This document shows, piece by piece, positions 490-29,982 of a DNA stretch of 64,000 nucleotides; position 1 is the stretch's first letter; each line of letters starts with the position of its first letter. The stretch is taken from positions 1 to 64,000 of the forward strand of contig SUUG01000022.1 in assembly GCA_015062655.1 (NCBI GenBank), read 5' to 3'. The position numbers were made by a program, and so were the translations under genes. Under the pieces are notes generated by a model. That model did not search any database. It was not told where the DNA came from and saw only the letters and a program-made list of their open reading frames with translations. This stretch comes from Coriobacteriaceae bacterium. Its GTDB lineage: Bacteria; Actinomycetota; Coriobacteriia; Coriobacteriales; Coriobacteriaceae.

Positions 490-1509
490 ATGATCGCCAT
501 CTTGAAGAAGGACGCGCCGGAGCAGGCCATCACGCATCTGAGGTCGTGGATCGAGGGCAAGGGCCTCACGACCCACCTCTCGCGCGGCGAGAACGAGATC
601 ATCGTCGGCCTCGTGGGCGACACCACCAAGATCGACCCCTTCCTTTTGGAGTCGATGGACATCGTCGAACGGGTCCAGCGCGTCTCCGAACCGTTCAAGA
701 AGGCGAATCGCAAGTTCCACCCCGCCGACTCGGTCATCGACTGCGGCCACGGCGTGCTGATCGGCGGCGGGCACTTCCAGGTCATCGCCGGGCCGTGCTC
801 TGTCGAGGGCGACAACCTCATCCGGATCGCGCGTCGCGCCAAGGCGGCCGGGGCGACGATGCTGCGCGGAGGCGCCTACAAGCCGCGCACGAGCCCCTAT
901 GCCTACCAGGGCATGGGCGAGGCGGGCCTCGACCTGCTGCGCGAGGCGGCCGACGAGCTCGACATGCCGATCGTGACCGAGATCATGGACCCCCGCGACC
1001 TGCCCCGCTTCCTCGACCGCGGCATCGAGGTGCTGCAGATCGGCGCCCGCAATGCGCAGAACTTCCCGCTGCTGAAGGAGGTCGGCAAGACCCGCACCCC
1101 GGTGCTTTTGAAGCGCGGCATGTCCGGCACCGTCGACGAGCTCCTCATGGCCGCCGAGTACATCATGAGCGAGGGCAACCCCAATGTGATTCTGTGCGAG
1201 CGCGGGATCCGCACCTACGAGACGCGCACGCGCAACACCTTCGACCTGAACGCGATTCCGACCCTGCACTACCTCTCCCACCTGCCGGTGGTCGCCGACC
1301 CGAGCCATGCGACGGGCTACACCCGCTACGTGGGCCCGATGGCCCTCGCCGCGACCGCGGCCGGCGCCGACGGCCTGGAGATCGAGGTGCACGACGACCC
1401 GAGCCGCGCGTGGTCCGACGGCGCGCAGGCGCTCACCCCCGACATGTTCGATGAGACGATGGAGAAGATCCGCCAGATCCGCGCCGTCGTCTGCCCGGAC
1501 GAGGCGTAA
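490..1509 (+). CDS. aroF: 3-deoxy-7-phosphoheptulonate (DAHP) synthase
   Basis: Catalyses the first shikimate-pathway step: phosphoenolpyruvate plus erythrose 4-phosphate gives DAHP, in the cytosol. The 339-aa protein has an N-terminal ferredoxin-like regulatory domain of about 70 residues and then a TIM-barrel. The barrel carries IAGPCSVE, RGGAYKPRTSPY, QIGARNAQNF, LLKRGM and DPSHATG. The short N-terminal domain followed by the barrel is the type I-beta layout (Thermotoga/Bacillus type), in which that domain binds the feedback effector. The start is supported by GGAGG 5 nt upstream. It is the first gene of an eight-gene operon, and tyrA follows after 3 nt, which suggests Tyr or Phe feedback (inference). 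Confidence 0.95.
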   Translation: MIAILKKDAPEQAITHLRSWIEGKGLTTHLSRGENEIIVGLVGDTTKIDPFLLESMDIVERVQRVSEPFKKANRKFHPADSVIDCGHGVLIGGGHFQVIAGPCSVEGDNLIRIARRAKAAGATMLRGGAYKPRTSPYAYQGMGEAGLDLLREAADELDMPIVTEIMDPRDLPRFLDRGIEVLQIGARNAQNFPLLKEVGKTRTPVLLKRGMSGTVDELLMAAEYIMSEGNPNVILCERGIRTYETRTRNTFDLNAIPTLHYLSHLPVVADPSHATGYTRYVGPMALAATAAGADGLEIEVHDDPSRAWSDGAQALTPDMFDETMEKIRQIRAVVCPDEA

Positions 1510-1512
1510 GGG

Positions 1513-2403
1513 ATGGATATGGGCGCGAACACACGGACGGGGACCGTCGGCATCCTCGGGCTCGGGCTCATCGGCGGCAGCTTCGCCCGCGCCTACCGCG
1601 CGGCGGGCTGGCGCGTCCTCGGCGCCGATACCGACGCCGACGCGCTGGCCGCCGCCCGGGTCGACACCGTCACGGGACCGCTCGATGACGCCGCGATCCC
1701 CACCTGCGACCTCATCGTCCTCGCCGCCTACCCGGCCGCCTGCGTGGCGTGGCTGCGCGAGCACGCGGACGCGATCGGCCCTCGCCCCGTGGTGATCGAC
1801 ACCGCGGGCGTGAAGGGCGCCGTCTGCCGCGAGGCCGAGGCCATCGCCTGCGAGCACGCCTTCGCCTTCTGCGGTGCCCACCCCATGGCCGGGACCGAGC
1901 ACTCGGGCTTCGCCTGGGCACGGGCCGACCTCTTCTCGGGGGCGCCGATGGTGCTCGTGCCGCCCGCGCTCGCTGACGGGCCGAGACTCGAGCTCCTCGA
2001 CCGGGTCCACACCCTGCTCGCGCCCGCCGGCTTCGGCTCCTTCTCTGTGGCGACGCCCGAGGAGCACGACCGCCGGATCGCCTTCACGAGCCAGCTCGCC
2101 CACGTGGTGTCGAACGCCTACGTGAAGAGCCCCACCGCCCAGGGCCACCACGGCTTCTCGGCCGGCAGCTACCGCGACCTCACCCGCGTGGCCCATCTGA
2201 ACCCGCGCATGTGGACCGAGCTCATGCTCGCCAACCGGGGCAACCTGGCCGGCGAGCTCGACACGATCATCGCCTCGCTCGCCGCCTACCGCGACGCCCT
2301 CGTAAACGACGACGCGGCCGCGCTCGAATCGCTCCTCGCCGAGGGGGACCGCATCAAGCGGACCCTCGACGGGGACCGCGCGGGGCGCCAGGCGAGCGAG
2401 TAG
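1513..2403 (+). CDS. tyrA: Prephenate dehydrogenase (TyrA)
   Basis: Oxidatively decarboxylates prephenate to 4-hydroxyphenylpyruvate in tyrosine synthesis. The 296-aa protein opens with a Rossmann motif GLGLIGGS and carries the catalytic-histidine motif HPMAGTEHSG near residue 120. The helical C-terminal dimerisation domain is present. There is no ACT domain, so feedback is probably exerted on the DAHP synthase instead. It begins 3 nt after that gene. A second in-frame ATG at 1519 is better spaced from the AAGGG and may be the true start. Confidence 0.93.
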   Translation: MDMGANTRTGTVGILGLGLIGGSFARAYRAAGWRVLGADTDADALAAARVDTVTGPLDDAAIPTCDLIVLAAYPAACVAWLREHADAIGPRPVVIDTAGVKGAVCREAEAIACEHAFAFCGAHPMAGTEHSGFAWARADLFSGAPMVLVPPALADGPRLELLDRVHTLLAPAGFGSFSVATPEEHDRRIAFTSQLAHVVSNAYVKSPTAQGHHGFSAGSYRDLTRVAHLNPRMWTELMLANRGNLAGELDTIIASLAAYRDALVNDDAAALESLLAEGDRIKRTLDGDRAGRQASE

Positions 2404-2418
2404 GAAGGGAGGAGGCCC

Positions 2419-3492
2419 ATGCAGACCATCGCCGTCTCCACTTCGCAGGGCGCCTACGAGGTCCGGATCGGGCCGGGCCTGCTGCCCTCGATCGGGCGCG
2501 CCGCCCGCGAGGCCGCCGGAGGTGCGCGCGCCTTCGTGGTCACCGATGAGAACGTGGCGGCCCATTACCTGGCCGGCGCCGTCGCTTCCCTTGAGGCGGC
2601 CGGCTACGCCGTCTCATCTCGCGTGCTTCCCGCCGGCGAGGCCACGAAGACCATGGCGTCGCTCACTGCGCTGCTCGAGGATCTCGCCGCCGCCGGCATG
2701 GCCCGCGACGACTGCGTCGTGGCCCTCGGCGGGGGCGTCATCGGGGACCTCGCCGGCTTCGCCGCGGCCGTCTACATGCGCGGATGCCCGTACATCCAGG
2801 TCCCGACCTCGCTTCTGGCCATGGTCGACTCCTCGGTGGGCGGCAAGACCGCCGTGGACCTCGCGGCCGGGAAGAACCTCGCCGGCGCCTTCTGGCAGCC
2901 CCGCGCCGTCATCGCCGACGTCACCACCTTGGAGACCGTCTCCGACGAGCTCTTCCGCGACAGCGTGGGCGAGGTCATCAAGTACGGTGTCCTGGGCGAC
3001 GCCGGCCTCTTTGCTGAGCTCGAGCGCGCGCCCCTCGTGAAGGCGGACCTGGACATGAGGCGCGCCGAGGACGTCGTCTCCCGCTGCGTGGCGATGAAGC
3101 GCGACGTGGTGGAGGCTGACGAGCGCGAGGGGGGTATCCGCCAGACCCTGAACCTCGGGCACACCGTCGGCCATGCGATCGAGAGCGCGAGCGGGTTCGC
3201 ACTCGGGCACGGCTCGTGCGTGGCCGCCGGGCTCGCCATCATGGCGCGCGCCTGCGTCCGCCGCGGTCTGTGCCCGGCGGCGGACGCGGCGAGGATCGAG
3301 GCCGTGATCGCGGCGCACGGGCTCCCCGTGACGAGCGACGTCGGCACCGGCATCCTCTTCGACCTGGCCCGATCCGACAAGAAGCGCCACGGCGAGCGCA
3401 TGAACGTCGTGCTCGTGCGCGGGATCGGGGCCGTCGAGGTGCGCAGCGTTCCCCTCGCGGAGCTGAAGGGGCTCATCGAGGAGGGCCGCTAG
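2419..3492 (+). CDS. aroB: 3-dehydroquinate synthase
   Basis: Converts DAHP to 3-dehydroquinate using NAD and a divalent metal. The 357-aa protein has the full family signature: GGGVIGDLAGF, QVPTSLLAMVDSSVGGKT, GEVIKYG (metal Glu), LNLGHTVGHAIE (metal His) and GHGSC (metal His). The start has a strong GGGAGGAGG. This is the catalytically intact copy; a degenerate paralogue lies at 17094-18200. Confidence 0.96.
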   Translation: MQTIAVSTSQGAYEVRIGPGLLPSIGRAAREAAGGARAFVVTDENVAAHYLAGAVASLEAAGYAVSSRVLPAGEATKTMASLTALLEDLAAAGMARDDCVVALGGGVIGDLAGFAAAVYMRGCPYIQVPTSLLAMVDSSVGGKTAVDLAAGKNLAGAFWQPRAVIADVTTLETVSDELFRDSVGEVIKYGVLGDAGLFAELERAPLVKADLDMRRAEDVVSRCVAMKRDVVEADEREGGIRQTLNLGHTVGHAIESASGFALGHGSCVAAGLAIMARACVRRGLCPAADAARIEAVIAAHGLPVTSDVGTGILFDLARSDKKRHGERMNVVLVRGIGAVEVRSVPLAELKGLIEEGR

Positions 3493-3711
3493 CGCGGCCT
3501 GGGCCGGAGCCGAGATTGGGATCGGGACCGGGGTTCGCGCCCTAGCCCCCGCGTCCCCGCCGGCCGCCTGCGCCGTTGCCCGCATCGGTCGCGCCCACGG
3601 CCGGCCGTCCCCGCCGCCCGCACCGCGCCCCGCCAGCGCCGCGCCCGGTGCGTCCGGGCGGGCGAGTATACTTGTCCGAGACGTCGCAGAACCGTAGCCG
3701 AAGGAGCGCCC
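3493..3711 (+). promoter_or_regulatory. GC-rich gap with possible internal promoter before aroA
   Basis: This 219-bp gap is the only sizeable break in the operon. TATACT at 3667-3672 lies 40 bp before the aroA start and could be a -10 of a secondary promoter. No good -35 is visible. Nothing else is recognised here. Confidence 0.25.
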
Positions 3712-5025
3712 ATGATCGCCACCATCACGCCCGCACCGCTCGCGGGGAGCGTGCCCGCCATCGCGTCCAAGTCCATGGCCCACCGGCTCATCATCGCCGC
3801 CGCGCTCGCCAACGGCGAGACCCACGTGGTCTGCAACACCACCTGCGACGACATCGACGCCACCCTGCGCTGCCTCACCGCGCTCGGTGCCCGCATCGAG
3901 GCGGTCGAGGACGGCTACCGCGTGCACCCGATCCCCAAGAGCACCTCGCTCGGGATCCTGCGCGCGCTCGCCGGCGCCGAGCTCGACTGCGGCGAGTCCG
4001 GATCGACCCTGCGCTTCATGCTCCCCGTCGCCTGCGCCCTCGGGGCCGAGGCGCGCTTCACCGGCCGCGGGCGCCTCGGGGAGCGGCCGCTCGAACCGCT
4101 CGCGAGCGAGCTCATCGCCGCCGGTTGCGAACTCGAGGGCGCCGGGGGCCTCCCCCTCACGGCGCACGGCCGCCTGCGCGCCGGCCGCTTCACGCTGCCC
4201 GGTAACGTGAGCTCGCAGTACATCACCGGGCTCATGCTCGCCGCCCCTCTGCTCGACGGGCCGAGCGAGATCCTCGTCAGCGGCCGCATCGAGAGCCGCC
4301 CCTACGTGAATCTCACCATCCAGGCGCTCGCCTCCTTCGGCGTGCGCGTCGAGCAGGAGCGCGGCATGTCCGAGGGCGAGGAGGCGACCCTCTTCCGCAT
4401 CGAGGGCGCGTACCGCACCGGCGGCGAGGTGACCGTCGAGGGGGATTGGTCGAACGCCGCATTCTGGCTGTGCGCCGGGGCCCTCGGCGAGCGGCCCGTG
4501 AGCGTGGAGGGGGTCTCGCTCTCCTCCGCGCAGGGCGACCGCACCATCCTCGCCGTGCTCTCGCGCTTCGGCGCCCGCGTGGGCCGCTCCACCTCCGCTG
4601 CCAGGGTCCAACCCGACCGCCTCCACGCCTTCGACATGAGCGCCCAGGACATCCCCGATCTCGTGCCGGTCATCTCCGCGGTGGCGAGCGTGGCCGCGGG
4701 CACCACGCGCATCTCGGACTGCGGCCGGCTCCGCCTCAAGGAGTCCGATCGCCTGGAGACGGTGGCGGCCGGCCTCGCCAACCTCGGCGCGCGGGTCGAG
4801 ATCCGCCGCGACGACCTGATCATCGAGGGCGTCGATACGCTCTCGTCCGGCACGGTCGACGCCGCGGGCGACCACCGCATCGCGATGATGGCCGCCGTCG
4901 CCGCGATCCGCGCGGACGGCCCCGTGCGGATCGTCGGCGCCGAGGCCGTCGACAAGTCCTACCCCGCCTTCTTCGACCACTACCGCCTGCTCGGCGGATC
5001 CGTCGACCTCTCTGACCAGGAGTAG
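3712..5025 (+). CDS. aroA: 3-phosphoshikimate 1-carboxyvinyltransferase (EPSP synthase)
   Basis: Joins shikimate 3-phosphate and phosphoenolpyruvate to give EPSP. The 437-aa protein is full length for the family and shows SKSMAHR near the N terminus, GESGSTLRFMLPVA, the central NVSSQYITG, RLKESDRL and DHRIAMM near the C terminus, so both inside-out barrel domains are present. GAAGGAGCGCCC precedes the ATG. aroC begins 2 nt after its stop. Confidence 0.95.
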   Translation: MIATITPAPLAGSVPAIASKSMAHRLIIAAALANGETHVVCNTTCDDIDATLRCLTALGARIEAVEDGYRVHPIPKSTSLGILRALAGAELDCGESGSTLRFMLPVACALGAEARFTGRGRLGERPLEPLASELIAAGCELEGAGGLPLTAHGRLRAGRFTLPGNVSSQYITGLMLAAPLLDGPSEILVSGRIESRPYVNLTIQALASFGVRVEQERGMSEGEEATLFRIEGAYRTGGEVTVEGDWSNAAFWLCAGALGERPVSVEGVSLSSAQGDRTILAVLSRFGARVGRSTSAARVQPDRLHAFDMSAQDIPDLVPVISAVASVAAGTTRISDCGRLRLKESDRLETVAAGLANLGARVEIRRDDLIIEGVDTLSSGTVDAAGDHRIAMMAAVAAIRADGPVRIVGAEAVDKSYPAFFDHYRLLGGSVDLSDQE

Positions 5026-5027
5026 CC

Positions 5028-6212
5028 ATGTCATCGATCATCGGAGGCGCCCTCAAGCTCTCCCTCTTCGGCCAGTCCCACTCCCCCGCCATCGGCTGCG
5101 TGCTGGACGGCCTGCCCGCCGGCATCCCCGTGGACGAGGAGGCGCTCGCCGCCTTCATGGCGCGCCGCGCGCCCGGACAGCGCGACACCTCGACTCCGCG
5201 CGCCGAAGCCGACGCCGTGCGCATCGTGGGCGGCGTGGCCGAGGGCCGCACCTGCGGGGCCCCCTTCGCCGCCGTCATCGAGAACACGAACACGCGCTCG
5301 CGCGACTACACCGAGCTGCGCCGCCGCCCGCGCCCGGGCCACGCCGACTTCACAGCGCACGAGCGCTACGGCAACTGGCACGACGTCGCCGGGGGCGGGC
5401 ACTTCTCCGGGCGTCTCACGGCGCCGCTGTGCGCGGCGGGCGGGGTGGCTCTCCAGGCCCTCGCCGGCCAGGGCGTGCGCATCGCGGCCCGCATCCTGCG
5501 GCTCGGCGCAGACGGCTCAAAGGCCGTAGACGACGCGCTCTCGCCCGCAGCACCCGGACCCGTGCCCCAGCAGGCCCCGGACGGCGCCCTTGAGGCCCTC
5601 GCCGCGAACGAGGCCGAGCTCGGCATGGCCATGGTCTCGCACACGGCCGCAGAGCGCGCCCGGGAGCTCATCTTGGAGGCCGCCGACGAGCTCGATTCGA
5701 TCGGCGGCGTGATCGAGTGCGTGGCCTGGGGCATGCCTGCGGGCGTGGGCGACCCGATCTTCGACGGGATCGAAAACCGGATCGCGCGGATGGCCTTCGG
5801 GGTGCCCGCCGTCAAGGGTGTGGAGTTCGGCGCCGGCTTCGCCGCGGCCGCCATGCGCGGCAGCGAGCACAACGACCCCTTCGCCGCCGGGGGCACGGGA
5901 CCCGTCCCCCACACGAACCACGCCGGCGGCATCCTCGGCGGCATCACCACCGGCGCCCCCGTCGTGTGGCGGGCGGCCGTGAAGCCCACCGCGTCCATCG
6001 GCCTGTCGCAGCACACCGTCGATCTCGCCACGGGCGCGGAGGCGCCGCTCACCGTGCGCGGGCGGCACGACCCCTGCATCGTCCCGCGCGCCGTCCCCGT
6101 CATGGAGGCCGTCTGCGCGCTGGCCCTGCTCGACGCCCTGATAGAGGACGGGCGCTTCGAGCGCCCCGCGCCGCGCCCCGACTGCGCGCTCACCGGTTTG
6201 GAAGGAGCATAA
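5028..6212 (+). CDS. aroC: Chorismate synthase
   Basis: Converts EPSP to chorismate with reduced FMN. The 394-aa protein begins with the family pattern around GQSHSPAIG, followed by RRPRPGHADFTA, GNWHDVAGGGHFSGRLTA and, near the C terminus, RHDPCIVPRAVPVMEA. The GGHFSGRLTAP form replaces the commoner GGRSSAR pattern and resembles the clostridial-type subgroup (recollection, not a search). The ribosome site AGGAG lies at the end of aroA, indicating translational coupling. Confidence 0.93.
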   Translation: MSSIIGGALKLSLFGQSHSPAIGCVLDGLPAGIPVDEEALAAFMARRAPGQRDTSTPRAEADAVRIVGGVAEGRTCGAPFAAVIENTNTRSRDYTELRRRPRPGHADFTAHERYGNWHDVAGGGHFSGRLTAPLCAAGGVALQALAGQGVRIAARILRLGADGSKAVDDALSPAAPGPVPQQAPDGALEALAANEAELGMAMVSHTAAERARELILEAADELDSIGGVIECVAWGMPAGVGDPIFDGIENRIARMAFGVPAVKGVEFGAGFAAAAMRGSEHNDPFAAGGTGPVPHTNHAGGILGGITTGAPVVWRAAVKPTASIGLSQHTVDLATGAEAPLTVRGRHDPCIVPRAVPVMEAVCALALLDALIEDGRFERPAPRPDCALTGLEGA

Positions 6213-6216
6213 GCCC

Positions 6217-7362
6217 ATGGACCTCGCTGAGATACGCGAACGCCTCGACGGGATCGACGGCGAGCTGATCCGCCTCGTGAACGAGCGGCTGGACCTCGCC
6301 GCCGAGGTGGCGGCCGCGAAGCGGCGAGACGGCAGGGCCGTCTTCGACCCTGCCCGCGAGCGCGAGAAGATCCACCGCGCGGCCACCGCGGCGGGCGCCT
6401 CCCGCGCGCCCCAGGCCATCGCCCTCATGAGCCTGCTCATGAGCATGAACCGCGCCGAGCAGCAGCGGATCTTGGCCGCTGACGATGAGGGCGGCGCCGC
6501 GGCCTCGATGAGGGGCGCGCTGCTGCCCGCCGACGCCTGCTTCCCCGCCGCGGCCACGGTCGCCTGCCAGGGAACCGAGGGCTCGTTCAGCCAGCACGCC
6601 GCGGCCCGCCTCTTCCGGGCGCCGTCCATCACCTACCTCACGAGCTTCGAGGGGGTCTTCCGCGCCGTGGCGGACGGCCTGTGCGAGTACGGGGTCCTGC
6701 CCATCGAGAACTCCACCGCCGGCTCCGTGAACGCCGTCTACGACCTGCTGGGGTCCTACGGCTTCTCGATCGTGCGGAGCCTGCGCCTGAAGGTCGAGCA
6801 CAGCCTGCTCGCGCTGCCCGGCGCGACGGTGGCCGGTCTGCGCGAGGTCATCAGCCACGAGCAGGCGCTCGCGCAGTGCGCGGGGCGCCTCAACCAGCTC
6901 GGGGTCGAGACGCGCGCCGTGAAGAACACCGCGATCGCCGCCGAGCTCGTGGCGGCATCCGGCCGGTGCGACCTCGCGGCGCTGGCCTCGACCGACTGCG
7001 CCGCCCTCTACGGCCTCGAGCCGCTCGAGGAGGGTGTGCAGGACAGCGAGGGCAACTACACACGGTTCGTCGTCGTCTCGGCGAGCCCCCAGATATTCCC
7101 CGGCGCCACCCGCACCTCGCTCATGCTCGCGCTCAAGCACGAGCCGGGTTCGCTCTACCGCGTGCTCGAGCGGCTGTTCGCCCTCGACATCAACCTCGTG
7201 AAGCTCGAGAGCCGCCCCATCGCCGGCCGCGATTTCGAGTTCGCCTTCTACTTCGATCTGGACTGCCCGGTGGGATCGCCCGCCCTCGACACCCTCCTCG
7301 ACGCCCTCGGCGACGTCTGCGAGCGCTTCACCTATTTCGGCAGCTACCAGGAGATCGTCTGA
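6217..7362 (+). CDS. pheA: Bifunctional chorismate mutase / prephenate dehydratase
   Basis: Makes prephenate from chorismate and then phenylpyruvate. The 381-aa protein has an AroQ-type chorismate mutase helix bundle at about residues 1-90. The prephenate dehydratase domain at about 108-285 carries GTEGSFSQHAA, PIENSTAGSV and the catalytic TRF motif. A C-terminal ACT domain has KLESRP, the usual Phe-binding signature, so Phe feedback is likely. AAGGAG precedes the start. Its stop TGA overlaps the next ATG by one base. Confidence 0.95.
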   Translation: MDLAEIRERLDGIDGELIRLVNERLDLAAEVAAAKRRDGRAVFDPAREREKIHRAATAAGASRAPQAIALMSLLMSMNRAEQQRILAADDEGGAAASMRGALLPADACFPAAATVACQGTEGSFSQHAAARLFRAPSITYLTSFEGVFRAVADGLCEYGVLPIENSTAGSVNAVYDLLGSYGFSIVRSLRLKVEHSLLALPGATVAGLREVISHEQALAQCAGRLNQLGVETRAVKNTAIAAELVAASGRCDLAALASTDCAALYGLEPLEEGVQDSEGNYTRFVVVSASPQIFPGATRTSLMLALKHEPGSLYRVLERLFALDINLVKLESRPIAGRDFEFAFYFDLDCPVGSPALDTLLDALGDVCERFTYFGSYQEIV

Positions 7363-8816
7363 TGCGCGGGCAGGCCGCCTCGGGCGGGGGCGCTCAGGCT
7401 GCGGGCGGGGCCGTCCGACGTGTGGATGAGGGCGTCCGGGGCGCGTGCGGGGCGCGTGCGGAAGAAGTCACCCGGAACGCGGGCGCCCCGCCTGTGGAAG
7501 AAGCCGCCTGGGACGCGGTTGAAGCCGCCCCGCGCGCGAGCCGCCCCTACGGCGTGCTCGGTCGTGTTCTCGGCCACAGCTACACGCCCGTGATCTACCG
7601 CGAGCTCGCCGGCATGGACTACCGCCGCTTCGAGGTGGAGCCAGAGGACATCGAGAGCTTCCTCGCCGGCGACACCTGGGAGGGCCTGAACGTCACGATC
7701 CCCTACAAGCGGGCCGTCCTCCCCCATCTCTCGGAGCTCTCCGAGACGGCCCGGCGCATGGGCAACGTCAACACGATCACGCGGCTGCCCGGACGCGGCC
7801 TGCGTGGCGACAACACCGACTACGCCGGTTTCGCCGCGCTCGTTGACGAGCTCGGGGTGGAGGTCGCCGGCAAGCGCGCCCTCGTCCTCGGGCACGGCGG
7901 GGCAGGCAGCACCTGCGCGCTCGTCCTTCAGGACCTGGGTGCGCGCGTCAGCTTCTGCGGTCGCGCGCGGCGCGATGACAACCCGGAGGCCCTCGTGTAC
8001 GAGGACCTTCCGGCCCGCGGCGGCGACTTCGACCTCCTGGTCAACGCCACCCCGGTAGGGATGTTCCCCGCCTGCCCGGCCGCGCCCGTTGACCTCGCGC
8101 ACCTCCCGAACCTCGCGGGCGTGCTCGACATCGTCTACAACCCCGCGCGCACCGGCCTTGTCATGGATGCCGAGCGGCGCGGCATCCCCTGCGTGGGCGG
8201 CCTCACCATGCTCGTTGCCCAGGCCGCGGCGGCGGTGGGGGTCTACACGGGGTCGACGCCCGCGGGCGAGGAGGTGCGCGCGCTCACCCGGAGGCTCTTC
8301 GCCACCGAGCAGAACATCGCCCTCATCGGCATGCCGGGAGCCGGCAAGACGCACGTGGGACGCGAACTCGCCCGCCTGCTCGGGCGGGAGCACGTGGATA
8401 TCGACGAGGAGATCGAGCGCGAGGTCGGCATGGGCTGCGCCGCCCTTATCGAGTCTCGGGGCGAGCGGGCGTTCCGCGAGGCGGAGACCCGTGTGCTCGC
8501 ACGCGTCGCCTCCGACTCGAACCAGGTCATCTCCTGCGGCGGCGGCGTGGTGGAGCGCGAGGGGAACTACGGCCTGCTGCACCAGAACAGTCTGATCGCC
8601 CTCATCGACCGACCCCTCGAAGAGCTCAGCGCGGCGGGCCGCCCCATCACCGCCCGAGACGGCATCGAGCGCCTCGCCGCGGCGCGCGGGCCGATCTACC
8701 GGTCCTGGGCCGACATCCGGGTGTCTTCGGGCAGGACCGCCGAGGACACCGCGGCCGCGCTCGCCCGACTGCTGCCCGCCATGCTCCGACACCCCACCGT
8801 CTTGCCACCGTCTTGA
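7362..8816 (+). CDS. aroE-aroK: Shikimate dehydrogenase-shikimate kinase fusion
   Basis: One 484-aa reading frame carries two consecutive pathway steps. Residues 1-60 are a low-complexity Ala/Gly/Arg leader. Residues 62-300 are AroE: NVTIPYK 110-116, NVNTI 135-139, GDNTDYAGF 149-157, NADPH loop GHGGAG 177-182. Residues 318-480 are AroK: P-loop GMPGAGKT 323-330, DID 346-348, FR 371-372, CGGG 392-395, GRPIT. The start overlaps the pheA stop (TGATG); with no strong Shine-Dalgarno there, a later start nearer residue 60 is possible. Both active sites look intact. A stand-alone aroK also exists at 18197-18748. Confidence 0.92.
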   Translation: MRGQAASGGGAQAAGGAVRRVDEGVRGACGARAEEVTRNAGAPPVEEAAWDAVEAAPRASRPYGVLGRVLGHSYTPVIYRELAGMDYRRFEVEPEDIESFLAGDTWEGLNVTIPYKRAVLPHLSELSETARRMGNVNTITRLPGRGLRGDNTDYAGFAALVDELGVEVAGKRALVLGHGGAGSTCALVLQDLGARVSFCGRARRDDNPEALVYEDLPARGGDFDLLVNATPVGMFPACPAAPVDLAHLPNLAGVLDIVYNPARTGLVMDAERRGIPCVGGLTMLVAQAAAAVGVYTGSTPAGEEVRALTRRLFATEQNIALIGMPGAGKTHVGRELARLLGREHVDIDEEIEREVGMGCAALIESRGERAFREAETRVLARVASDSNQVISCGGGVVEREGNYGLLHQNSLIALIDRPLEELSAAGRPITARDGIERLAAARGPIYRSWADIRVSSGRTAEDTAAALARLLPAMLRHPTVLPPS

Positions 8817-8825
8817 AGGAGGACC

Positions 8826-9263
8826 ATGAAGGCGCTCATCATCAACGGCCCCAACCTCAACATGCTCGGCGTCCGCGAACCCGGCATCTACGGGCATGAG
8901 ACCTACGAGGACCTCGTGGCCCTCTGCGAGCGGGTCGGCGCGGAGGCCGGCTTCGCGGAGGTGGCCTGCTTCCAGTCGAACCATGAGGGGGCGATCGTCG
9001 ATCGGATCCAGGAGGCGCTCGGCGCCTTCGACGGCATCGTGATCAACCCGGCCGCCTACACGCACACGAGCGTGGCGATCCTCGACGCGCTGAAGGCCGT
9101 GGGTCTGCCGGCCGTGGAGGTGCATATCAGCGATGTCGACGCCCGCGAGGACTTTCGCCAGGTGTCGTTCGCCGGGCGAGCGTGCTTCGCACGGGTGTCA
9201 GGTGAGGGGCTTTCGGGGTACGGGCGCGCGCTCGCGCTGCTGGCGGAGCGGTTGCGGGGGTAG
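8826..9263 (+). CDS. aroQ: 3-dehydroquinate dehydratase, type II
   Basis: Dehydrates 3-dehydroquinate to 3-dehydroshikimate. The 145-aa length is typical of the dodecameric type II enzyme. Motifs are NGPNLNMLGVREPGIYG (with the catalytic Tyr loop), FQSNHEGAIVDRI, INPAAYTHTSVAILDAL (catalytic His) and EVHISDVDAREDFR. GAAGGAGG precedes the start. This last gene completes a full DAHP-to-chorismate pathway plus the Phe and Tyr branches. Confidence 0.96.
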   Translation: MKALIINGPNLNMLGVREPGIYGHETYEDLVALCERVGAEAGFAEVACFQSNHEGAIVDRIQEALGAFDGIVINPAAYTHTSVAILDALKAVGLPAVEVHISDVDAREDFRQVSFAGRACFARVSGEGLSGYGRALALLAERLRG

Positions 9264-11202: not shown

Positions 11203-11312
11203 TGTAGCGCTATGGTACCCCAACCCCGCGTCCGACCGAGGCACCACTCGTGCGCGCCTCCGCTGCCGCCGCACACCCTCCCGCAGATGCCGAGCCCGCT
11301 CCCGCAGATGCC

Positions 11313-11513
11313 GAGCGTTCGTAATTCGGCGTTTCCGACAGTCAAAATGCCGTATTTCGAACGCTCAGCATAGGCGTGTCGATATCGAGCGTTCGCAATA
11401 CGGCATTTTCGCACGCTGGAATGCGGTATTACGAACGCTCACGATAGCGACCGGATGCTGAGCGTTCGCAATACGATGTTTTCACGCGATGAGATGCCGT
11501 ATCTCGAACGCGC
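11313..11513. repeat. 54-bp palindrome family, triplet (copies 1-3)
   Basis: Three copies at 11313-11366, 11387-11440 and 11460-11513. Each is exactly 54 bp: left arm like GAGCGTTCGTAATWCGGC, an 18-bp centre, and right arm like GCCGTATTACGAACGCTC. Copy starts are 74 and 73 bp apart. The centres begin with a TTTTC-type tract and often end in GAAAA, so each can form a long hairpin. They lie in the recN-nadK gap. Confidence 0.93.
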
Positions 11514-11924
11514 GGCACGAAGCCGCTCAGCGCACGTGCGTCTGCAGTGAGCGGGACGGTCGGTGGCGCGCCTCATCATGCTGCGGCGCCCCTTGCAACG
11601 AGCGCATCGGATCCATGCCCTATGATGCGCTCCCAACCTTGACATAACTCCGGTCTCTGCGAGCGCACCACTGATTTGCGGAGAAAAAACGAATCTAGGA
11701 CCCTTCACAAACCGGATCACAGAAACTCTTGCAGGTCAAAGACGTCAACATTATTGAGTTTGGGAACTTCAAGCTCCCAACCTCAATAAACGTACGGTTT
11801 TGCGGTCCCAACCTCACGATTTCGACGTAGCGCCGCACTCGGCTGGGAGACGACGGATCGCGAACGCCCACGCCAGGCGGCGAGGATGCCGAATCGTATC
11901 CGGCCCGCTCAGGTGCCCGATGCC
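11514..11924. other. Spacer between palindrome clusters
   Basis: No gene is recognised. It contains an AT-richer patch with a 15-bp inverted repeat carrying one mismatch (TTATTGAGTTTGGGA at 11751-11765 against 11775-11789). The motif CCCAACCT recurs near 11632, 11776 and 11809. Function unknown. Confidence 0.5.
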
Positions 11925-12051
11925 GAGCGTTCGCAATTCGACATTTCGACGCGCCAGCGTGCCGTATTGCGACCGCTCAAGATGAGAGCCGGATGCTGAG
12001 CGTTCGTAATTCGGCTTTTCCGGCAGGAAAAAGGCCGTATTACGAACGCTC
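11925..12051. repeat. 54-bp palindrome family, doublet (copies 4-5)
   Basis: Copies at 11925-11978 and 11998-12051 share the same 18-18-18 layout with starts 73 bp apart. The second copy ends 25 bp beyond the nadK stop codon. Copy 4 has the most decayed right arm (GACCGCTC in place of GAACGCTC). Confidence 0.93.
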
Positions 12052-12076
12052 GGTATCGGGCATCGGGCATCGGACG

Positions 12077-14995: not shown

Positions 14996-15559
14996 CTACG
15001 CGCGGGATACGAACTCGCCGGTGCGGGTGTCGACCTTGATCTGCTCGCCCTCGTTCAGGTACATGGGGACCTGGACCTCGGCGCCCGTGTCGATCGTGGC
15101 GGGCTTGTAGGCGCCCTGGACGGTGTCGCCCTTGGCGCCGGGGACCGTCTCGGTGACGGTGGCGATGATGAACATCGGCGGGTTCACGCCCATGAGGTCC
15201 TCGTCGGCGTAAAGGAGCTGGCAGGTATCGTTCTCACGGAGCCACTTGGAGTTGCCCCCCACCATGTCCTCGGGCACCGGGACCTGCTCGTAGGTCTCGT
15301 TGTCCATGAAGATGTAGTCGGCCCCGTCGTTGTAGAGGTACTGCATCTCCTTGGTGATGAGCTGCACGCTCTCGAACTTGGTGCCGGCGTTGCAGGTGTT
15401 CTCGACCACGCGCCCCGTCTTGATATCGCGGGTCTTGTAGCGGACGAACGCACCGCCCTTGCCGGGCTTGACGTGCTGGAACTCGACGATGGTGTAGATC
15501 TTGTCCTTGATCTTGAGGCCCATGCCGTTCTTGAAGTCAGCGGTGGAGATCGATGCCAT
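14996..15559 (-). CDS. efp: Translation elongation factor P
   Basis: Relieves ribosome stalling at polyproline. The 187-aa protein has three beta-barrel domains: an N-terminal KOW-like domain with HVKPGKGGAFVRYK (the tip Lys is the usual modification site), the middle domain LYNDGADYIFMDNETYEQV, and the C-terminal S1-like domain ending VDTRTGEFVSRA. AAAGGT precedes the start. A possible promoter TATACT on the minus strand is at 15611-15616. Confidence 0.96.
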   Translation of the reverse strand: MASISTADFKNGMGLKIKDKIYTIVEFQHVKPGKGGAFVRYKTRDIKTGRVVENTCNAGTKFESVQLITKEMQYLYNDGADYIFMDNETYEQVPVPEDMVGGNSKWLRENDTCQLLYADEDLMGVNPPMFIIATVTETVPGAKGDTVQGAYKPATIDTGAEVQVPMYLNEGEQIKVDTRTGEFVSRA

Positions 15560-15679: not shown

Positions 15680-16825
15680 CTAGCAGTCGATCACGACGAG
15701 GTCGTGCGTGCTCGTCGTGAAGGGCTCGTAGCCGTCCTTCGTCACCACGCCGTAGTCCTCGAGGCGCACGCCGCCCACGCCGGGCAGGTAGATACCGGGT
15801 TCCACGGTGATGACCGCACCCACTTCCAGGATGTTGCTCACGCGGCCGAAGACCGGCAGCTCGTGGATGTCGATGCCCACGCCGTGTCCGAGACCGTGGC
15901 CGTAGTAGTCGCCGTAGCCGGCGTCACCGATGATCTTCTTCGAGAGCAGGTGGATGTCGCGCCCGTCAACGCCCGCGTGGATCGCGCGGACGCACTCCTC
16001 GTGCGTGCGGCGGACGAGGTCGTAGATCTCGCGCTGCTTCTCGCTCGGCTCGCCGAGGACCACCGTGCGCGTCATGTCGGAGCGATAGTCGCGATAGCCC
16101 GCGCCGTAGTCCATGAGCACGAAGTCGCCGCGCTCGACGACGCGGTCGCTCGAGATGGCGTGCGGATTGGCCGTGTTGGGGCCCGAGGCGACGATGGAGT
16201 CGAAGGCGAGCGAGTCGGCGCCGTTCTCGAACATGAAGCGCTCGAGCTCCGTGCGGATCTGCTTCTCGGTGAGGCCCGGGCGGATGAAGCCGCACATGTG
16301 CGTGAACGCCGCGTCCGTGATGGACTGGGCGTGGCGCATGAGGGCGATCTCCTCATCGTCCTTGACGGCGCGCATGCGGCGGATGTCGCCGTGGAGCTCG
16401 GGCAGGGCCGCCGTGATGGAGCGGTCCTCGAGGCCGCGAACGAGGGCGCGGTAGAAGCTGAGCTGCATGTCGTCCTCGATGGCAATGACGCGGCTCTTGG
16501 TTTCGAGCGCGCGCTCGGCCACCCAGGCCGGGATGGCGATCTCATCCATGTCGAGGGTCCAGGGATAACCCGCCGGCAGGTTCTCCTCGAAGCTGTTGAG
16601 GTAGCGCGAGTCGGTGTGGAGCCAGCAGCCGAACTCGGTGATGAAGGCCGCGTGCGGGTACTCGCCGGTGTAGTCGAAGACGCCCATGGCGCCGGTGAGC
16701 CAGCGCAGGCTCGCCTCGTCGCGGACGACGACGGCGTCGTAGCCGCGGTCATCCATGAGGGAGCGGAGCTCGGCGATGCGACGCGCGGGGCCGGCGAGCG
16801 ACGGGGTGACAGGGGTCTCGGACAT
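15680..16825 (-). CDS. pepP: Xaa-Pro aminopeptidase (M24 family)
   Basis: Removes N-terminal residues preceding proline. The 381-aa protein has a creatinase-like N-terminal domain and a C-terminal pita-bread domain. All five metal ligands are visible: Asp in MDYGAGY, Asp in SDMTRTV, His in GHGLGHGVG, Glu in VEPGIYLPG and Glu in RLEDYGVV. Position next to efp is conserved in actinobacteria, where it is often called pepQ. Confidence 0.93.
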   Translation of the reverse strand: MSETPVTPSLAGPARRIAELRSLMDDRGYDAVVVRDEASLRWLTGAMGVFDYTGEYPHAAFITEFGCWLHTDSRYLNSFEENLPAGYPWTLDMDEIAIPAWVAERALETKSRVIAIEDDMQLSFYRALVRGLEDRSITAALPELHGDIRRMRAVKDDEEIALMRHAQSITDAAFTHMCGFIRPGLTEKQIRTELERFMFENGADSLAFDSIVASGPNTANPHAISSDRVVERGDFVLMDYGAGYRDYRSDMTRTVVLGEPSEKQREIYDLVRRTHEECVRAIHAGVDGRDIHLLSKKIIGDAGYGDYYGHGLGHGVGIDIHELPVFGRVSNILEVGAVITVEPGIYLPGVGGVRLEDYGVVTKDGYEPFTTSTHDLVVIDC

Positions 16826-16941
16826 GGTGGATTCCTTTCTAGAGGGGTTCGCGATGGGTTCCCCGGCATTCTACCGCAACGCCCGCGCCGGAACGGGCCG
16901 CTCCGGGAGCCTGCCGGGACGACAGATGCCGAGGTGATGCC

Positions 16942-17068
16942 GACCGTTCGTAATACGGCATTTCGAGCGCGGAATATGGCGGATTACGAACGCTCGCGAT
17001 TTGACGATGATGCCGAGCGTTCGTGATACGGCGTTTTCGCGGCCGAAAATGGCGGATTACGAACGCTC
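16942..17068. repeat. 54-bp palindrome family, doublet (copies 6-7)
   Basis: Copies at 16942-16995 and 17015-17068, starts 73 bp apart. The right arms are the GGCGGATTACGAACGCTC variant in both. They lie between the aroB-like stop (17094) and the pepP start (16825). Confidence 0.93.
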
Positions 17069-17093
17069 GGCATCGGGCGGCGGGCAGCGGGCG

Positions 17094-18200
17094 TCAGGCG
17101 TCGGCGTCCATGATCTCGGCGCGGCTGGCGAGGTAGGCCTCGGCGTGGCGGGCGAGCAGCTCGTCGTCGACCACGCTGAGGCGCACCGAGCCCACCATCT
17201 GCGGCAGGGGCAGCAGGAAGCGGTTCGACCGCTTGAAGCAGGCCTCGCGGATCGCGGCGATGAAGAGCGCCGGCTCGAGCTCGAAGGGAAGCTCGTCGAT
17301 ACCGAAGGCCTCGAGGCGGTCGTCGAGCTCGAACATGTCCTCGGCGTCGAACCGCCCGGCCTCGACGCCCAGGCGGGACTCGAACCGCATGCCTTCGGCG
17401 AGAAGCGCCCACCACGGGACCTTCGGCCCCAGGCAGGAGCGCAGCGCGCGGGCCGTCACGGTGCCGAAGAGGCGCCCGGCGCGGGCCGAGGGGCTCACGG
17501 ACTTCTCGGCCATGAGACGACCCGTCTGGGCCTGTGCGAGCACGTCGACGAGCGCCGCCTCGTCGACCGAGCGAATCAGCTCGATCCGCTCGCCCAGGCG
17601 GTCCCACGAACGCCGGCAATCGATGAGCGCCGAGGTCAGAAGCGCGAGATAACCCAATCGGCGCTCCTTTTCGGGCGCCACCGAGACGAGGTCGAGGTCT
17701 GCCACGACCATCGCCGGCCGGCTCGCCCCCCAGACCATCGACGCGTCGTCGCCGACCGAGAGCCCCTCCATGGACGTCGCGACCGTGACCATGCCGTCCA
17801 GCGCGGTGGGCACGAGGACGGTCGCCGTGCCGCCGCACCACGCGCGGCCGCAGAACTGCGTGAGGCCACACAGTCCCGCGCCGCCCACAGCGACGATCAG
17901 GTCGTCGGCCGTGGCGCCGGTCGCGGCGAGCACCTCGAACAGACGCGCCGCGTAGGCGATCGAGGCGGCGTCCTCCCCCGCCGGGATGGACAGGTCGCTC
18001 ACCTGGAACCCGGCATCGATGAGGGCGCGCGAGACCGCGAGCGCGGGGCCGTCCGCCGACTCCTCGGCGCAGACGATCACGGCGCGCTTCGGCGTGCCCA
18101 CCACCGACTTCGCCATGGGGCCGAACTCGTCCAGGGCGCCCGCGCCCACCCGGTAATCGCAGCTGACGTCGGAGAAGTTGATGAGCTTGCGACGGATCAT
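17094..18200 (-). CDS. Degenerate 3-dehydroquinate synthase-like protein
   Basis: A 368-aa AroB-fold paralogue without the active-site signature. Aligning by eye to the intact AroB at 2419-3492, GGGVIGD becomes GGAGLCGL, the VDSSVGGKT loop becomes VATSMEGLSV, the metal Glu of GEVIKYG is replaced (GYLALLTSA), and both His ligands are lost (RLFGTVTARAL; VPWWALLAEG). The frame is long and undamaged and overlaps the upstream aroK by 4 nt, so it looks expressed rather than decaying. Position aroK-aroB-pepP-efp is the ancestral actinobacterial aroB site. A non-enzymatic or changed role is inferred. Confidence 0.75.
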   Translation of the reverse strand: MIRRKLINFSDVSCDYRVGAGALDEFGPMAKSVVGTPKRAVIVCAEESADGPALAVSRALIDAGFQVSDLSIPAGEDAASIAYAARLFEVLAATGATADDLIVAVGGAGLCGLTQFCGRAWCGGTATVLVPTALDGMVTVATSMEGLSVGDDASMVWGASRPAMVVADLDLVSVAPEKERRLGYLALLTSALIDCRRSWDRLGERIELIRSVDEAALVDVLAQAQTGRLMAEKSVSPSARAGRLFGTVTARALRSCLGPKVPWWALLAEGMRFESRLGVEAGRFDAEDMFELDDRLEAFGIDELPFELEPALFIAAIREACFKRSNRFLLPLPQMVGSVRLSVVDDELLARHAEAYLASRAEIMDADA

Positions 18201-18748
18201 AGAAGACCACGCTCCAGAAGCAACTCGGCCACCATGTAGGAGACCTCGGTGAATGATTTGCGGCGGATGTCCACCGTGAAGTCGGCCGCGGCGCGGTAGA
18301 GGGGCCGGCGGTGCTCGAGCAGGCGGGCGGCGTGCTTGGGCGAGCGGAAATCGGGCCGCGTGTCGCGGCGCTTGATCTGCCGAAGCGAGTCGCGCAAGTC
18401 GCCGTCGAGGTAGACGCAGTAGCCCATCTCGTGGATGAGCTCGATGTTGCGCGGCGTCTCGATGATGCCGCCGCCGCAGGACACGAGCAGGCTCCGCTCG
18501 TGCTCAAGCGACTCCAGCGCCTGCGTCTCGAGGACGCGGAACCGCTCCTCCCCCTCGAGGTTGAAGATCTTGGTCACGGTGAGCCCGCGCCGGCGCTCGA
18601 CCATCTTGTCGGTGTCGACGTAGCGCCGGTTGAACATGCGGCCGAGGTTGCGTGCGAGCGTCGACTTCCCCGCGCCGAGGAAGCCGACGAAGAAGATGTG
18701 GTCGCATCCGCGCCTCGGGATGGTCATCTGCTCACTCAGTGCGTCCAT
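18197..18748 (-). CDS. aroK: Shikimate kinase, stand-alone copy
   Basis: A 183-aa P-loop kinase: GFLGAGKS, DTD (shikimate-binding Asp), FRVLE, SCGGGI and RRPLYRAAAD, so the main catalytic features are kept. The lid reads RRDTRPDFRS. Phosphorylates shikimate if active. It is redundant with the kinase half of the fusion at 7362-8816 and is coupled by a 4-nt overlap to the degenerate AroB-like gene. A shifted substrate is possible but not shown. Confidence 0.85.
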   Translation of the reverse strand: MDALSEQMTIPRRGCDHIFFVGFLGAGKSTLARNLGRMFNRRYVDTDKMVERRRGLTVTKIFNLEGEERFRVLETQALESLEHERSLLVSCGGGIIETPRNIELIHEMGYCVYLDGDLRDSLRQIKRRDTRPDFRSPKHAARLLEHRRPLYRAAADFTVDIRRKSFTEVSYMVAELLLERGLL

Positions 18749-18754
18749 GCGGGC

Positions 18755-19252
18755 CTACTCCTCGCAGGGGACGCCCTTGAGCGCACGGCGCTCGAAGATG
18801 CGGAAGATCTGCGTGTACCAGAGGTCCTGGGAGGACTGGGGCTTCACCAGGATGGTCTTGATGCCAGCGAGCTTGCCTGCCCAGACGTCGGTGTAGATCT
18901 GGTCCCCGATCATGACGGCCTCGCCGCGCGCGATCCCCAGGCGCTTGAGCGCCCGCTTGAGGGCGAACGGCGCCGGCTTCATCGCGTGGCTGATGAAGCC
19001 CATGTCGAGCTCGGAGGCGGAGCGGGCCACCTGGTCGCGATGGAAGTTGTTGGAGACGATGTGCAGGGAGAACCCGAGCTCACGCGCGCGGTCGAGCCAG
19101 GCCGCGACGGCGGCCGGGGCCGTCTTGCGGTCGCGGGGCACGATGGTGTTGTCGCGGTCGAGCAGCAGCGCGCGCACGCCCGCGCGCCGCAGGCCCTCGA
19201 GGTCGATGCGCTCGACGGCGGCGACGTAGCGATCGGGTGAGAGGGCGCCCAT
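18755..19252 (-). CDS. YqeG-family HAD phosphatase
   Basis: The 165-aa protein has the HAD motif I LLLDRDNTIVP, motif II-like IVSNN and motif III-IV KPAPFALKRAL with IGDQIYTDVWAGKLAG. This is the YqeG (HAD IIIA) family, related to phosphatidylglycerophosphate phosphatases; the substrate is uncertain. Its start overlaps the mltG stop (ATGA). Confidence 0.9.
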   Translation of the reverse strand: MGALSPDRYVAAVERIDLEGLRRAGVRALLLDRDNTIVPRDRKTAPAAVAAWLDRARELGFSLHIVSNNFHRDQVARSASELDMGFISHAMKPAPFALKRALKRLGIARGEAVMIGDQIYTDVWAGKLAGIKTILVKPQSSQDLWYTQIFRIFERRALKGVPCEE

Positions 19253-20442
19253 CAGCGGTTCTCCTCGATGGCCTTGAGGTGGTCGTCGTAGGTGGCCGAG
19301 AAGTAGGCCGTGTCGGTGGTGATGAAGAAGTAGAGGTAGTCGGTCGAGGCGGGCTCGAGGGCCGCCTTGAGCGAGGCGAGTGAGGGCGTGCAGACGGGCG
19401 TGGGCGTGAGACCGCGGTTCAGGTAGGTGTTGTAGGGGCTCTCGACCTTGAGGTCGGCCGCGGTCACGGCACCGCCCGTCACGTACATCATCGTCGCGTC
19501 GCTCTGCAGCGGCATGTCGACCTTCAGGCGGTTGTAGAACGTGGAGGACACGTTCAGGCGCTGCTCGTCGGTGAGCGCCTCGCGCTCGATGATCGAGGCC
19601 ATGATCAGCAGGTCGTAATCGGACATCTCGACCCCGTAGGAGGCCTTGAGAGCGGACCGGGCGCCCTCGAAGTCAAGGGAACGGAACTCAGCCTCGAATT
19701 GGTTGAGGAGCTTGCGGATCACGGCGTCGGCGGTGGGCTCGCCGGTGAAGGTGTAGGTCTTGGGGCAGAGGAAGCCCTCGAGCGAGTCGTCGGCGACGCC
19801 CTCGAGGAAGGGATAGTCGGCGACGTAGGCGGAGGCCTTGGCCTGGGCGAGGAAGTCGTCGGCGGGAATCCCCAGCGTCTCCTCGACCCGCGCCGCGGTC
19901 TGCTTGACCGTGAGCCCCTCAGGCAGCGTGAGCTTCAGCCCCGCCACGTTCGGGCCGTCCATGAGCTGGCGCACGACCTCCTCGGGGTTCTGCCCCACGG
20001 TGAAGGAGTAGGTGCCGGGCTGCAGGGACTGGTCGGCCGACAGGGCGCTCACGGCGGCGTAGTAGTCGCGCGGCTCCTCGATCACATGGGCCTTCGCGAG
20101 GATGGAGGCGATGGCGTCGCCGCCCGAGCCCTCGGGGATCTCGACGGTCACCGCGGTGCCCGCCGCCGGGGCGTCGGAGCCCGCCGCCGGGGCGCCGGAG
20201 CCCCCGAGCAGGCGCGGCACGAGGAAGGCGCCGCCCGCCACGAGCCCGATCAGCACCAAGACGATGATGACCACCGCCGCCGGATGGGGCCCGTGCCGCG
20301 CCTGGCGGTACGGGCTCGATGCGGAGAGCCGCCCTGGGGAGCGCTTGAACCGCGCGCCGGCGGAGGCGGGCCGGGCGGAGCCGCGTCCCGTGAAGCGGGC
20401 GCCCGGGCGCGAGGGCGGGCGCATCCCGTTCGAATTAGCCAT
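19252..20442 (-). CDS. mltG: Endolytic murein transglycosylase MltG
   Basis: Membrane-anchored lytic transglycosylase that cuts nascent glycan strands. The 396-aa protein has an Arg/Pro-rich cytosolic stretch (1-60), one transmembrane helix (about 63-85, AVVIIVLVLIGLVAGGAFLV) and a YceG domain with EGFLCPKTYTF, the catalytic-Glu motif ASIIEREA and PYNTYLNRGLTPTPVC. The ATG at 20442 is chosen for its GAGAGG site; it overlaps ruvX by 8 nt. Confidence 0.94.
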   Translation of the reverse strand: MANSNGMRPPSRPGARFTGRGSARPASAGARFKRSPGRLSASSPYRQARHGPHPAAVVIIVLVLIGLVAGGAFLVPRLLGGSGAPAAGSDAPAAGTAVTVEIPEGSGGDAIASILAKAHVIEEPRDYYAAVSALSADQSLQPGTYSFTVGQNPEEVVRQLMDGPNVAGLKLTLPEGLTVKQTAARVEETLGIPADDFLAQAKASAYVADYPFLEGVADDSLEGFLCPKTYTFTGEPTADAVIRKLLNQFEAEFRSLDFEGARSALKASYGVEMSDYDLLIMASIIEREALTDEQRLNVSSTFYNRLKVDMPLQSDATMMYVTGGAVTAADLKVESPYNTYLNRGLTPTPVCTPSLASLKAALEPASTDYLYFFITTDTAYFSATYDDHLKAIEENR

Positions 20443-29804: not shown

Positions 29805-29934
29805 GAGCGTTCGTAATCGCCGCTTTTTCGCAACGAAAACGCCGTATTGCGAACGCTCGCGATCCCCCCTGGCAGATGCCGAGCGTTCGTAATTCGGCAA
29901 AATCGCGCGCAAAAAGGGCGGATTACGAACGCTC
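29805..29934. repeat. 54-bp palindrome family, doublet (copies 8-9)
   Basis: Copies at 29805-29858 and 29881-29934, starts 76 bp apart; both keep the 18-18-18 layout. Copy 8 has a centre CTTTTTCG...CGAAAAC that extends the stem almost to the dyad. They lie between the dgt start and the prepilin peptidase stop. Confidence 0.93.
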
Positions 29935-29982
29935 GGCATCTTCAGGGCGGCGCGGTGCGGGACGGGGGCGGTGCGGGGCGGC

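Follow-up and report, generated by a model that had tools for sequence, protein, structure and literature searches.

A DHQS-like protein in a conserved gene block

The window, i.e. the whole stretch of 64,000 nucleotides analysed here from a Coriobacteriaceae bacterium, carries on its minus strand a gene (17094..18200) for a 368-amino-acid protein predicted to have the fold of 3-dehydroquinate synthase (AroB, or DHQS) and devoid of the NAD motif, the metal ligands and nine of the eleven substrate-pocket residues of that enzyme; we refer to it as dead AroB. Its start codon (ATG) overlaps, in an ATGA, the stop codon of a gene for an AroK-type shikimate kinase of 183 amino acids (18197..18748, minus strand), which keeps its catalytic residues and has a LID reading RPD, not RPL. 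The same strand carries upstream a YqeG-like HAD phosphatase gene (18755..19252), named from sequence resemblance, and an MltG-like gene (19252..20313; approximate start), and downstream the genes of the PepP aminopeptidase (15680..16825) and of the Efp elongation factor P (14996..15559), where the conserved block ends. The order MltG-HAD-AroK-[dead AroB]-PepP-Efp is nearly invariable in Coriobacteriaceae-like and Atopobiaceae-like genomes, and the ATGA overlap, which was found at 62 loci, is the Coriobacteriaceae arrangement. An Rfam scan detected no RNA element near the dead AroB locus. A palindromic repeat of about 62 bp (ATGCCGAGCGTTCGTAATNCGGC and its inverted partner) occurs at positions 11308-12056, 16937-17073 and 29841-29939 of the window (14 half-site matches vs 0 expected), and two of its copies lie between dead aroB and pepP. 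At a locus of another genome (L119; G063:C20:54400-58450), dead AroB and PepP share one open frame of 734 amino acids, which is either a natural fusion or a stop-codon sequencing error.

Dead AroB and the canonical AroB encoded elsewhere in the window are the only proteins of the genome to match the Pfam DHQ_synthase family (PF01761) above its cut-off (32.4 bits vs 24.2 for dead AroB). The NCBIfam aroB model TIGR01357 aligns with residues 28-346 (E=2.5e-16) and scores 59.8 bits, far under its cut-off of 305. The Pfam scan gave no match to PF24621, and dead AroB scored below the thresholds of TIGR04425 (AroB-related sugar phosphate phospholyase; 14 bits vs 400), of PF00465 (iron-containing alcohol dehydrogenase family; 15.1 vs a gathering score of 31.3) and of PF13685 (22.0 vs 28).

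The following lines of evidence indicate that the active site has gone. First, the position of the nucleotide-binding motif GGGVIGD reads GGAGLCG, and GGGxxGD is missing from all 74 Coriobacteriaceae and Atopobiaceae members examined, while it is present in 48 of 49 canonical AroBs, which rules out chance or a peculiarity of one genome. Second, the metal-binding Glu, His and His are aligned with Ala, Thr and Trp and, since dead AroB contains a single histidine (H352), no alignment of any kind could restore the triad. Third, among the eleven residues listed for the DAHP pocket of DHQS (PMC6262012), nine are replaced, one shows a conservative Lys to Arg change (R228) and one Arg is kept (R240). 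It is worth noting that single alanine substitutions at K144, N154, N246, H249 or K323 nearly abolish the activity of the Mycobacterium tuberculosis DHQS (PMC6262012); the equivalents of these five residues are all replaced in dead AroB. The key-residue table thus bears out the first-pass annotation, which had reported the losses of GGGVIGD, of the VGGKT loop and of the three metal ligands in a full-length, undamaged gene: the frame is exact and open, with no internal stop, and the presence of metal ligands elsewhere in the sequence, which would have overturned this view, is excluded by the lone histidine.

The fold appears to have been spared. The AlphaFold model, calculated with 67 aligned sequences, reached a pLDDT of 95.9 and a pTM of 0.93 over the whole chain, and its closest solved structures were DHQS enzymes (Foldseek E 1.7e-23), with 352 residues of 5eks superimposed at Z 41.4 and rmsd 2.5 (VIA-align). 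The fold is also common to the sugar-phosphate cyclases 2-deoxy-scyllo-inosose synthase (2gru, Z 36.4) and ValA (4p53, Z 33.5), which were both solved with NAD and metal bound, whereas dead AroB has neither site. The scaffold is predicted to be intact, unlike the chemistry. Dead AroB therefore resembles DHQS (TIGR01357, PF01761 plus PF24621) in its complete fold, its ancestral operon position and its descent, and it differs from DHQS in lacking the NAD motif, the metal triad, most of the pocket and PF24621. Judging from its sequence, dead AroB is a DHQS-family pseudoenzyme, which lost the active site and kept the fold under purifying selection.

Displacement of the native AroB and maintenance of its dead form

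The window also harbours a complete aro operon (490..9263, plus strand) encoding DAHP synthase, TyrA, AroB, AroA, AroC, PheA, an AroE-AroK fusion and AroQ, the genes outside the family scans being named from sequence resemblance. Its canonical AroB (2419..3492, plus strand) has all catalytic residues, in agreement with the intact aroB that had been noted there. AroE-AroK is encoded as one protein (7359-8816, plus strand), and the window genome has two shikimate-kinase domains, in this fusion and in the AroK that adjoins dead AroB; the predicted fusion kinase can serve the pathway in this genome.

The ancestry of the locus was traced in related families. Eggerthellaceae-like and several other families possess AroC-AroK-AroB-AroQ-PepP-Efp at this place, often with AroE just upstream, and their AroB retains every catalytic residue, so the aroK-aroB-pepP-efp position is indeed ancestral and conserved. 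A tree was rooted with E. coli and further Actinobacteria; in it, the Collinsella and Olsenella operon AroBs grouped with the outgroups, apart from the ancestral-locus and dead AroBs (SH-aLRT 100). This topology rules out a recent in-genome duplication of aroB. The first-pass annotation had taken dead AroB for a second paralogue of the operon aroB; the rooted tree shows that it is instead the displaced native orthologue, the active operon aroB being a xenologue of different origin. The ancestral aro operon is thus MltG-HAD-AroE-AroC-AroK-AroB-AroQ-PepP-Efp, with dead AroB as its native AroB, and in Coriobacteriaceae and Atopobiaceae the old locus has lost its native aroC and aroQ and kept aroK and aroB. 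Both families possess in addition a second, complete aro operon of different origin, with an intact AroB. We propose that transfer brought in this second operon, whose arrival would have freed the native AroB from the DHQS task.

Such a relief appears to have recurred. Part-degenerate AroBs occur at or near the ancestral position in three lineages outside the Coriobacteriaceae/Atopobiaceae clade of dead AroBs (L055 in G100, L068 in G069 and L071 in G102), and in another genome (G116, locus L080) AroB is cleanly absent between AroK and PepP. The placement of L073, a member on a long branch, is uncertain.

Dead AroB was found in 64 of 65 Coriobacteriaceae-like genomes, the exception being a 72%-complete assembly, and in 103 of 104 Atopobiaceae-like genomes (each at least 90% complete), the lone exception of which (G145) lacks the native AroK as well. 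The homologues, mostly 40-55% identical, occur in Collinsella, Enorma, Olsenella and Thermophilibacter, among other named carriers; Collinsella, Olsenella and their relatives are bacteria of the gut and mouth. The frames are open across about 167 genomes. Nei-Gojobori estimates of dN/dS on 21 close Collinsella genomes were 0.096 (dead AroB), 0.032 (AroK) and 0.025 (PepP), and eight other close pairs gave 0.05-0.13 for dead AroB. Dead AroB is thus under purifying selection, about three times looser than that on AroK, and its evolution has been faster than that of the adjacent genes (tree length 22.8 vs 10-14.5). Relaxed selection or frequent disruption in relatives, the signs that would have pointed to a decaying gene, were not found, and the dN/dS of about 0.1, the intact frames and the retained fold disfavour a pseudogene. 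Two apparent disruptions were set aside. In Collinsella vaginalis (G039, locus L108), MltG/HAD is duplicated and dead AroB is split, with its pieces in reversed order and one of them joined to alaS; single Ns and duplicated shuffled fragments led us to treat this locus as assembly damage, like that of G144, which is shuffled in much the same way.

Dead AroB also survives in genomes that appear to have lost chorismate synthesis. The first (G044; presumably Coriobacterium glomerans PW2) is a single contig of 2,115,681 bp, 99% complete, in which neither chorismate synthase (AroC) nor canonical AroB was found. It has one EPSP-synthase-type match only, expected to be MurA, its sole shikimate-kinase match is the AroK of the dead AroB locus, and it retains the full MltG-HAD-AroK-dead AroB-PepP-Efp block. 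The second (G071, 94% complete) has one EPSP-type match and retains AroK with a very divergent dead AroB. In the third (G132, 1.0 Mb, 94% complete), a very divergent dead AroB adjoins HAD and PepP, and neither AroC nor any match to the locus AroK was found; at this locus (L231; G132:C2:33500-42000) the place of AroK is taken by a gene resembling prepilin peptidases in sequence. A Collinsella genome (G028) was rejected as a further pathway-free case, as it has AroE-AroK and AroQ; its 24,363-codon open frame presumably consists of Ns and reflects a gap, not a loss. From these gene contents, dead AroB would outlive chorismate synthesis in three genomes, and AroK in two of them. Being conserved despite its lost catalysis, even in species devoid of the pathway, dead AroB almost certainly does a job other than DHQS.

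The AroK-type kinase and the possible functions of dead AroB

The first-pass annotation had described the neighbouring kinase as a seemingly active shikimate kinase coupled to dead AroB. The first part holds for the catalytic residues, as the locus AroK keeps Walker A, D34, R58, E61, GGG, the LID R117 and, two positions ahead of the conserved RxPLY proline, the Arg. Leu119 of the M. tuberculosis enzyme lines the shikimate pocket (PMC7144000), and this position is Asp in 75 of 75 Coriobacteriaceae and Atopobiaceae loci, whereas all 19 loci with an intact AroB have Leu or Met there. The L119D change, which was inherited from a single event and does not count 75 times, suggests altered substrate or lid contacts and, together with the survival of AroK where AroA and AroC are gone, it leads us to think that the locus AroK may be no ordinary shikimate kinase. 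In the shikimate-poor lineage of G071 (locus L073), the AroK next to the very divergent dead AroB has GGG changed to GDG and keeps an RPLL lid.

As for the coupling, it is borne out by the ATGA overlap and by evolutionary rates. Branch-wise rate covariation, calculated on a fixed tree for MltG, HAD, AroK, dead AroB and PepP, was highest for AroK and dead AroB (partial rho 0.56 over all branches and 0.54-0.60 in subsets, vs 0.31-0.41 for the next best pair), which headed the sets of 10 and of 15 pairs tested. The genes of HAD-AroK and of dead AroB-PepP lie just as close together, yet they covary less. When the operon AroB and AroA were added, AroK-dead AroB again came first (rho 0.58); the operon AroB gave -0.15 with dead AroB and 0.46 with AroK, the latter value hinting that in most species AroK may not have left the pathway. 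As a sign of a non-catalytic function, the covariation with AroK is only suggestive; co-operonic neighbours can covary without contact.

From these data we propose, with about even confidence in being right or wrong, that dead AroB, itself non-catalytic, serves the AroK-type kinase as a partner or regulator, perhaps in a role apart from the shikimate pathway. Dead AroB would act as a non-catalytic subunit that stabilises, or allosterically regulates, the co-translated kinase. The kinase itself, having kept its ATP and phosphoryl-transfer residues and changed its substrate lid, could persist without the shikimate pathway, and a shikimate-like carboxylated polyol would be the likeliest guess for its substrate. 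Three findings weigh against the partner model: the dead AroB of G132, which occurs without AroK and shows that the kinase is not indispensable for the retention of dead AroB there; the covariation of AroK with the operon AroB; and the looser selection on dead AroB than on AroK. A bolder version, which we regard as unlikely, is that AroK and dead AroB form a two-subunit kinase outside aromatic biosynthesis, in which the Asp119 kinase phosphorylates another carboxylated metabolite and dead AroB gates or senses that metabolite by means of R228 and R240, left over from its old substrate site. If true, two adjacent shikimate genes would have given the Coriobacteriia of gut and mouth a kinase-pseudoenzyme system that has not been described so far.

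The rival that survives best, although we hold it to be rather improbable, is that dead AroB works independently of AroK, sensing a metabolite or serving as a scaffold that binds a ligand, with R228 and R240 as possible binding residues for a carboxylate. These residues, kept in 64 of 67 and 66 of 67 members, respectively, align with K228 and R242 of the M. tuberculosis enzyme, which belong to the DAHP pocket (PMC6262012), and the G132 protein, which has no AroK to serve, fits this proposal. It is weakened by the disappearance of those parts of the pocket that bind phosphate, NAD and metal and by the loss of both arginines in the most divergent members (L073), and it leaves the strong AroK covariation unexplained.

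Clearly less probable is a slowly decaying remnant, held only because aroK translation or the operon structure needs its position. Although the fast evolution of dead AroB and the independently degenerate or deleted AroBs at the equivalent position elsewhere would suit a remnant, its dN/dS, its open frames and its strict fold retention do not. Furthermore, G116 shows that a clean deletion is possible, yet in the two families it is seen only jointly with that of AroK (G145).

That the AroB fold now supports a new reaction needing neither NAD nor metal is very unlikely. The protein is full-length, well folded and conserved, with its own set of invariant residues (D100, G106, W121, G270, R272, F273, R276, D293, P333 and G337), but most of the invariant residues are common in the canonical ancestral-locus AroBs (R272, F273, R276 and P333, and also H352 and A355), so they look like an inherited scaffold, and no standout cluster of conserved acid, base or nucleophile occurs at the old cleft. 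Finally, we give practically no credence to an active DHQS with catalytic residues misplaced by the alignment, which has the PF01761 match in its favour and is ruled out by the single histidine, the loss of GGGxxGD in all 74 relatives, the key-residue table and the TIGR01357 score.

Related cases and significance

We found no description of an AroB pseudoenzyme or of a Coriobacteriia aroB paralogue in the open-access literature. The closest parallels come from other steps of the pathway. The plant shikimate kinase-like proteins SKL1 and SKL2 lost their ancestral activity, took other roles and were retained under selection (PMC2593004). Like them, dead AroB is a shikimate-pathway homologue that appears to have lost its ancestral activity and is kept under selection; unlike these plant kinases, here it is the synthase that is inactive, the neighbouring kinase looking catalytically competent. 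Similarly, the DHQase domain of Candida albicans Aro1 is inactive and keeps its fold, as dead AroB does; another enzyme can perform its step, and its deletion gave no detectable growth effect (PMC9074039). This domain lies within a multi-enzyme, whereas dead AroB is free-standing and persists without the pathway.

The Coriobacteriia locus seems to offer a clear-cut natural example of a native enzyme that was displaced by a foreign one and then became a pseudoenzyme under conservation; related lineages, in which AroB is intact, dead or deleted, are available for comparison. As a 'shikimate kinase plus DHQ synthase' pair is able to survive the loss of its pathway, automated annotation may credit genomes such as G044 with shikimate steps that they lack. 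In E. coli, a second activity of AroK, related to mecillinam, has suggested a role apart from chorismate synthesis (discussed in PMC2593004). This kinase of an aroK-aroB operon might thus have an extra role, as suspected here; E. coli differs in having an active AroB and no dead AroB, and the link with the Coriobacteriia case is by analogy only. The Coriobacteriia locus makes it possible to test whether AroK-type kinases also work outside chorismate synthesis, as the mecillinam phenotype of E. coli AroK had led others to ask (discussed in PMC2593004).
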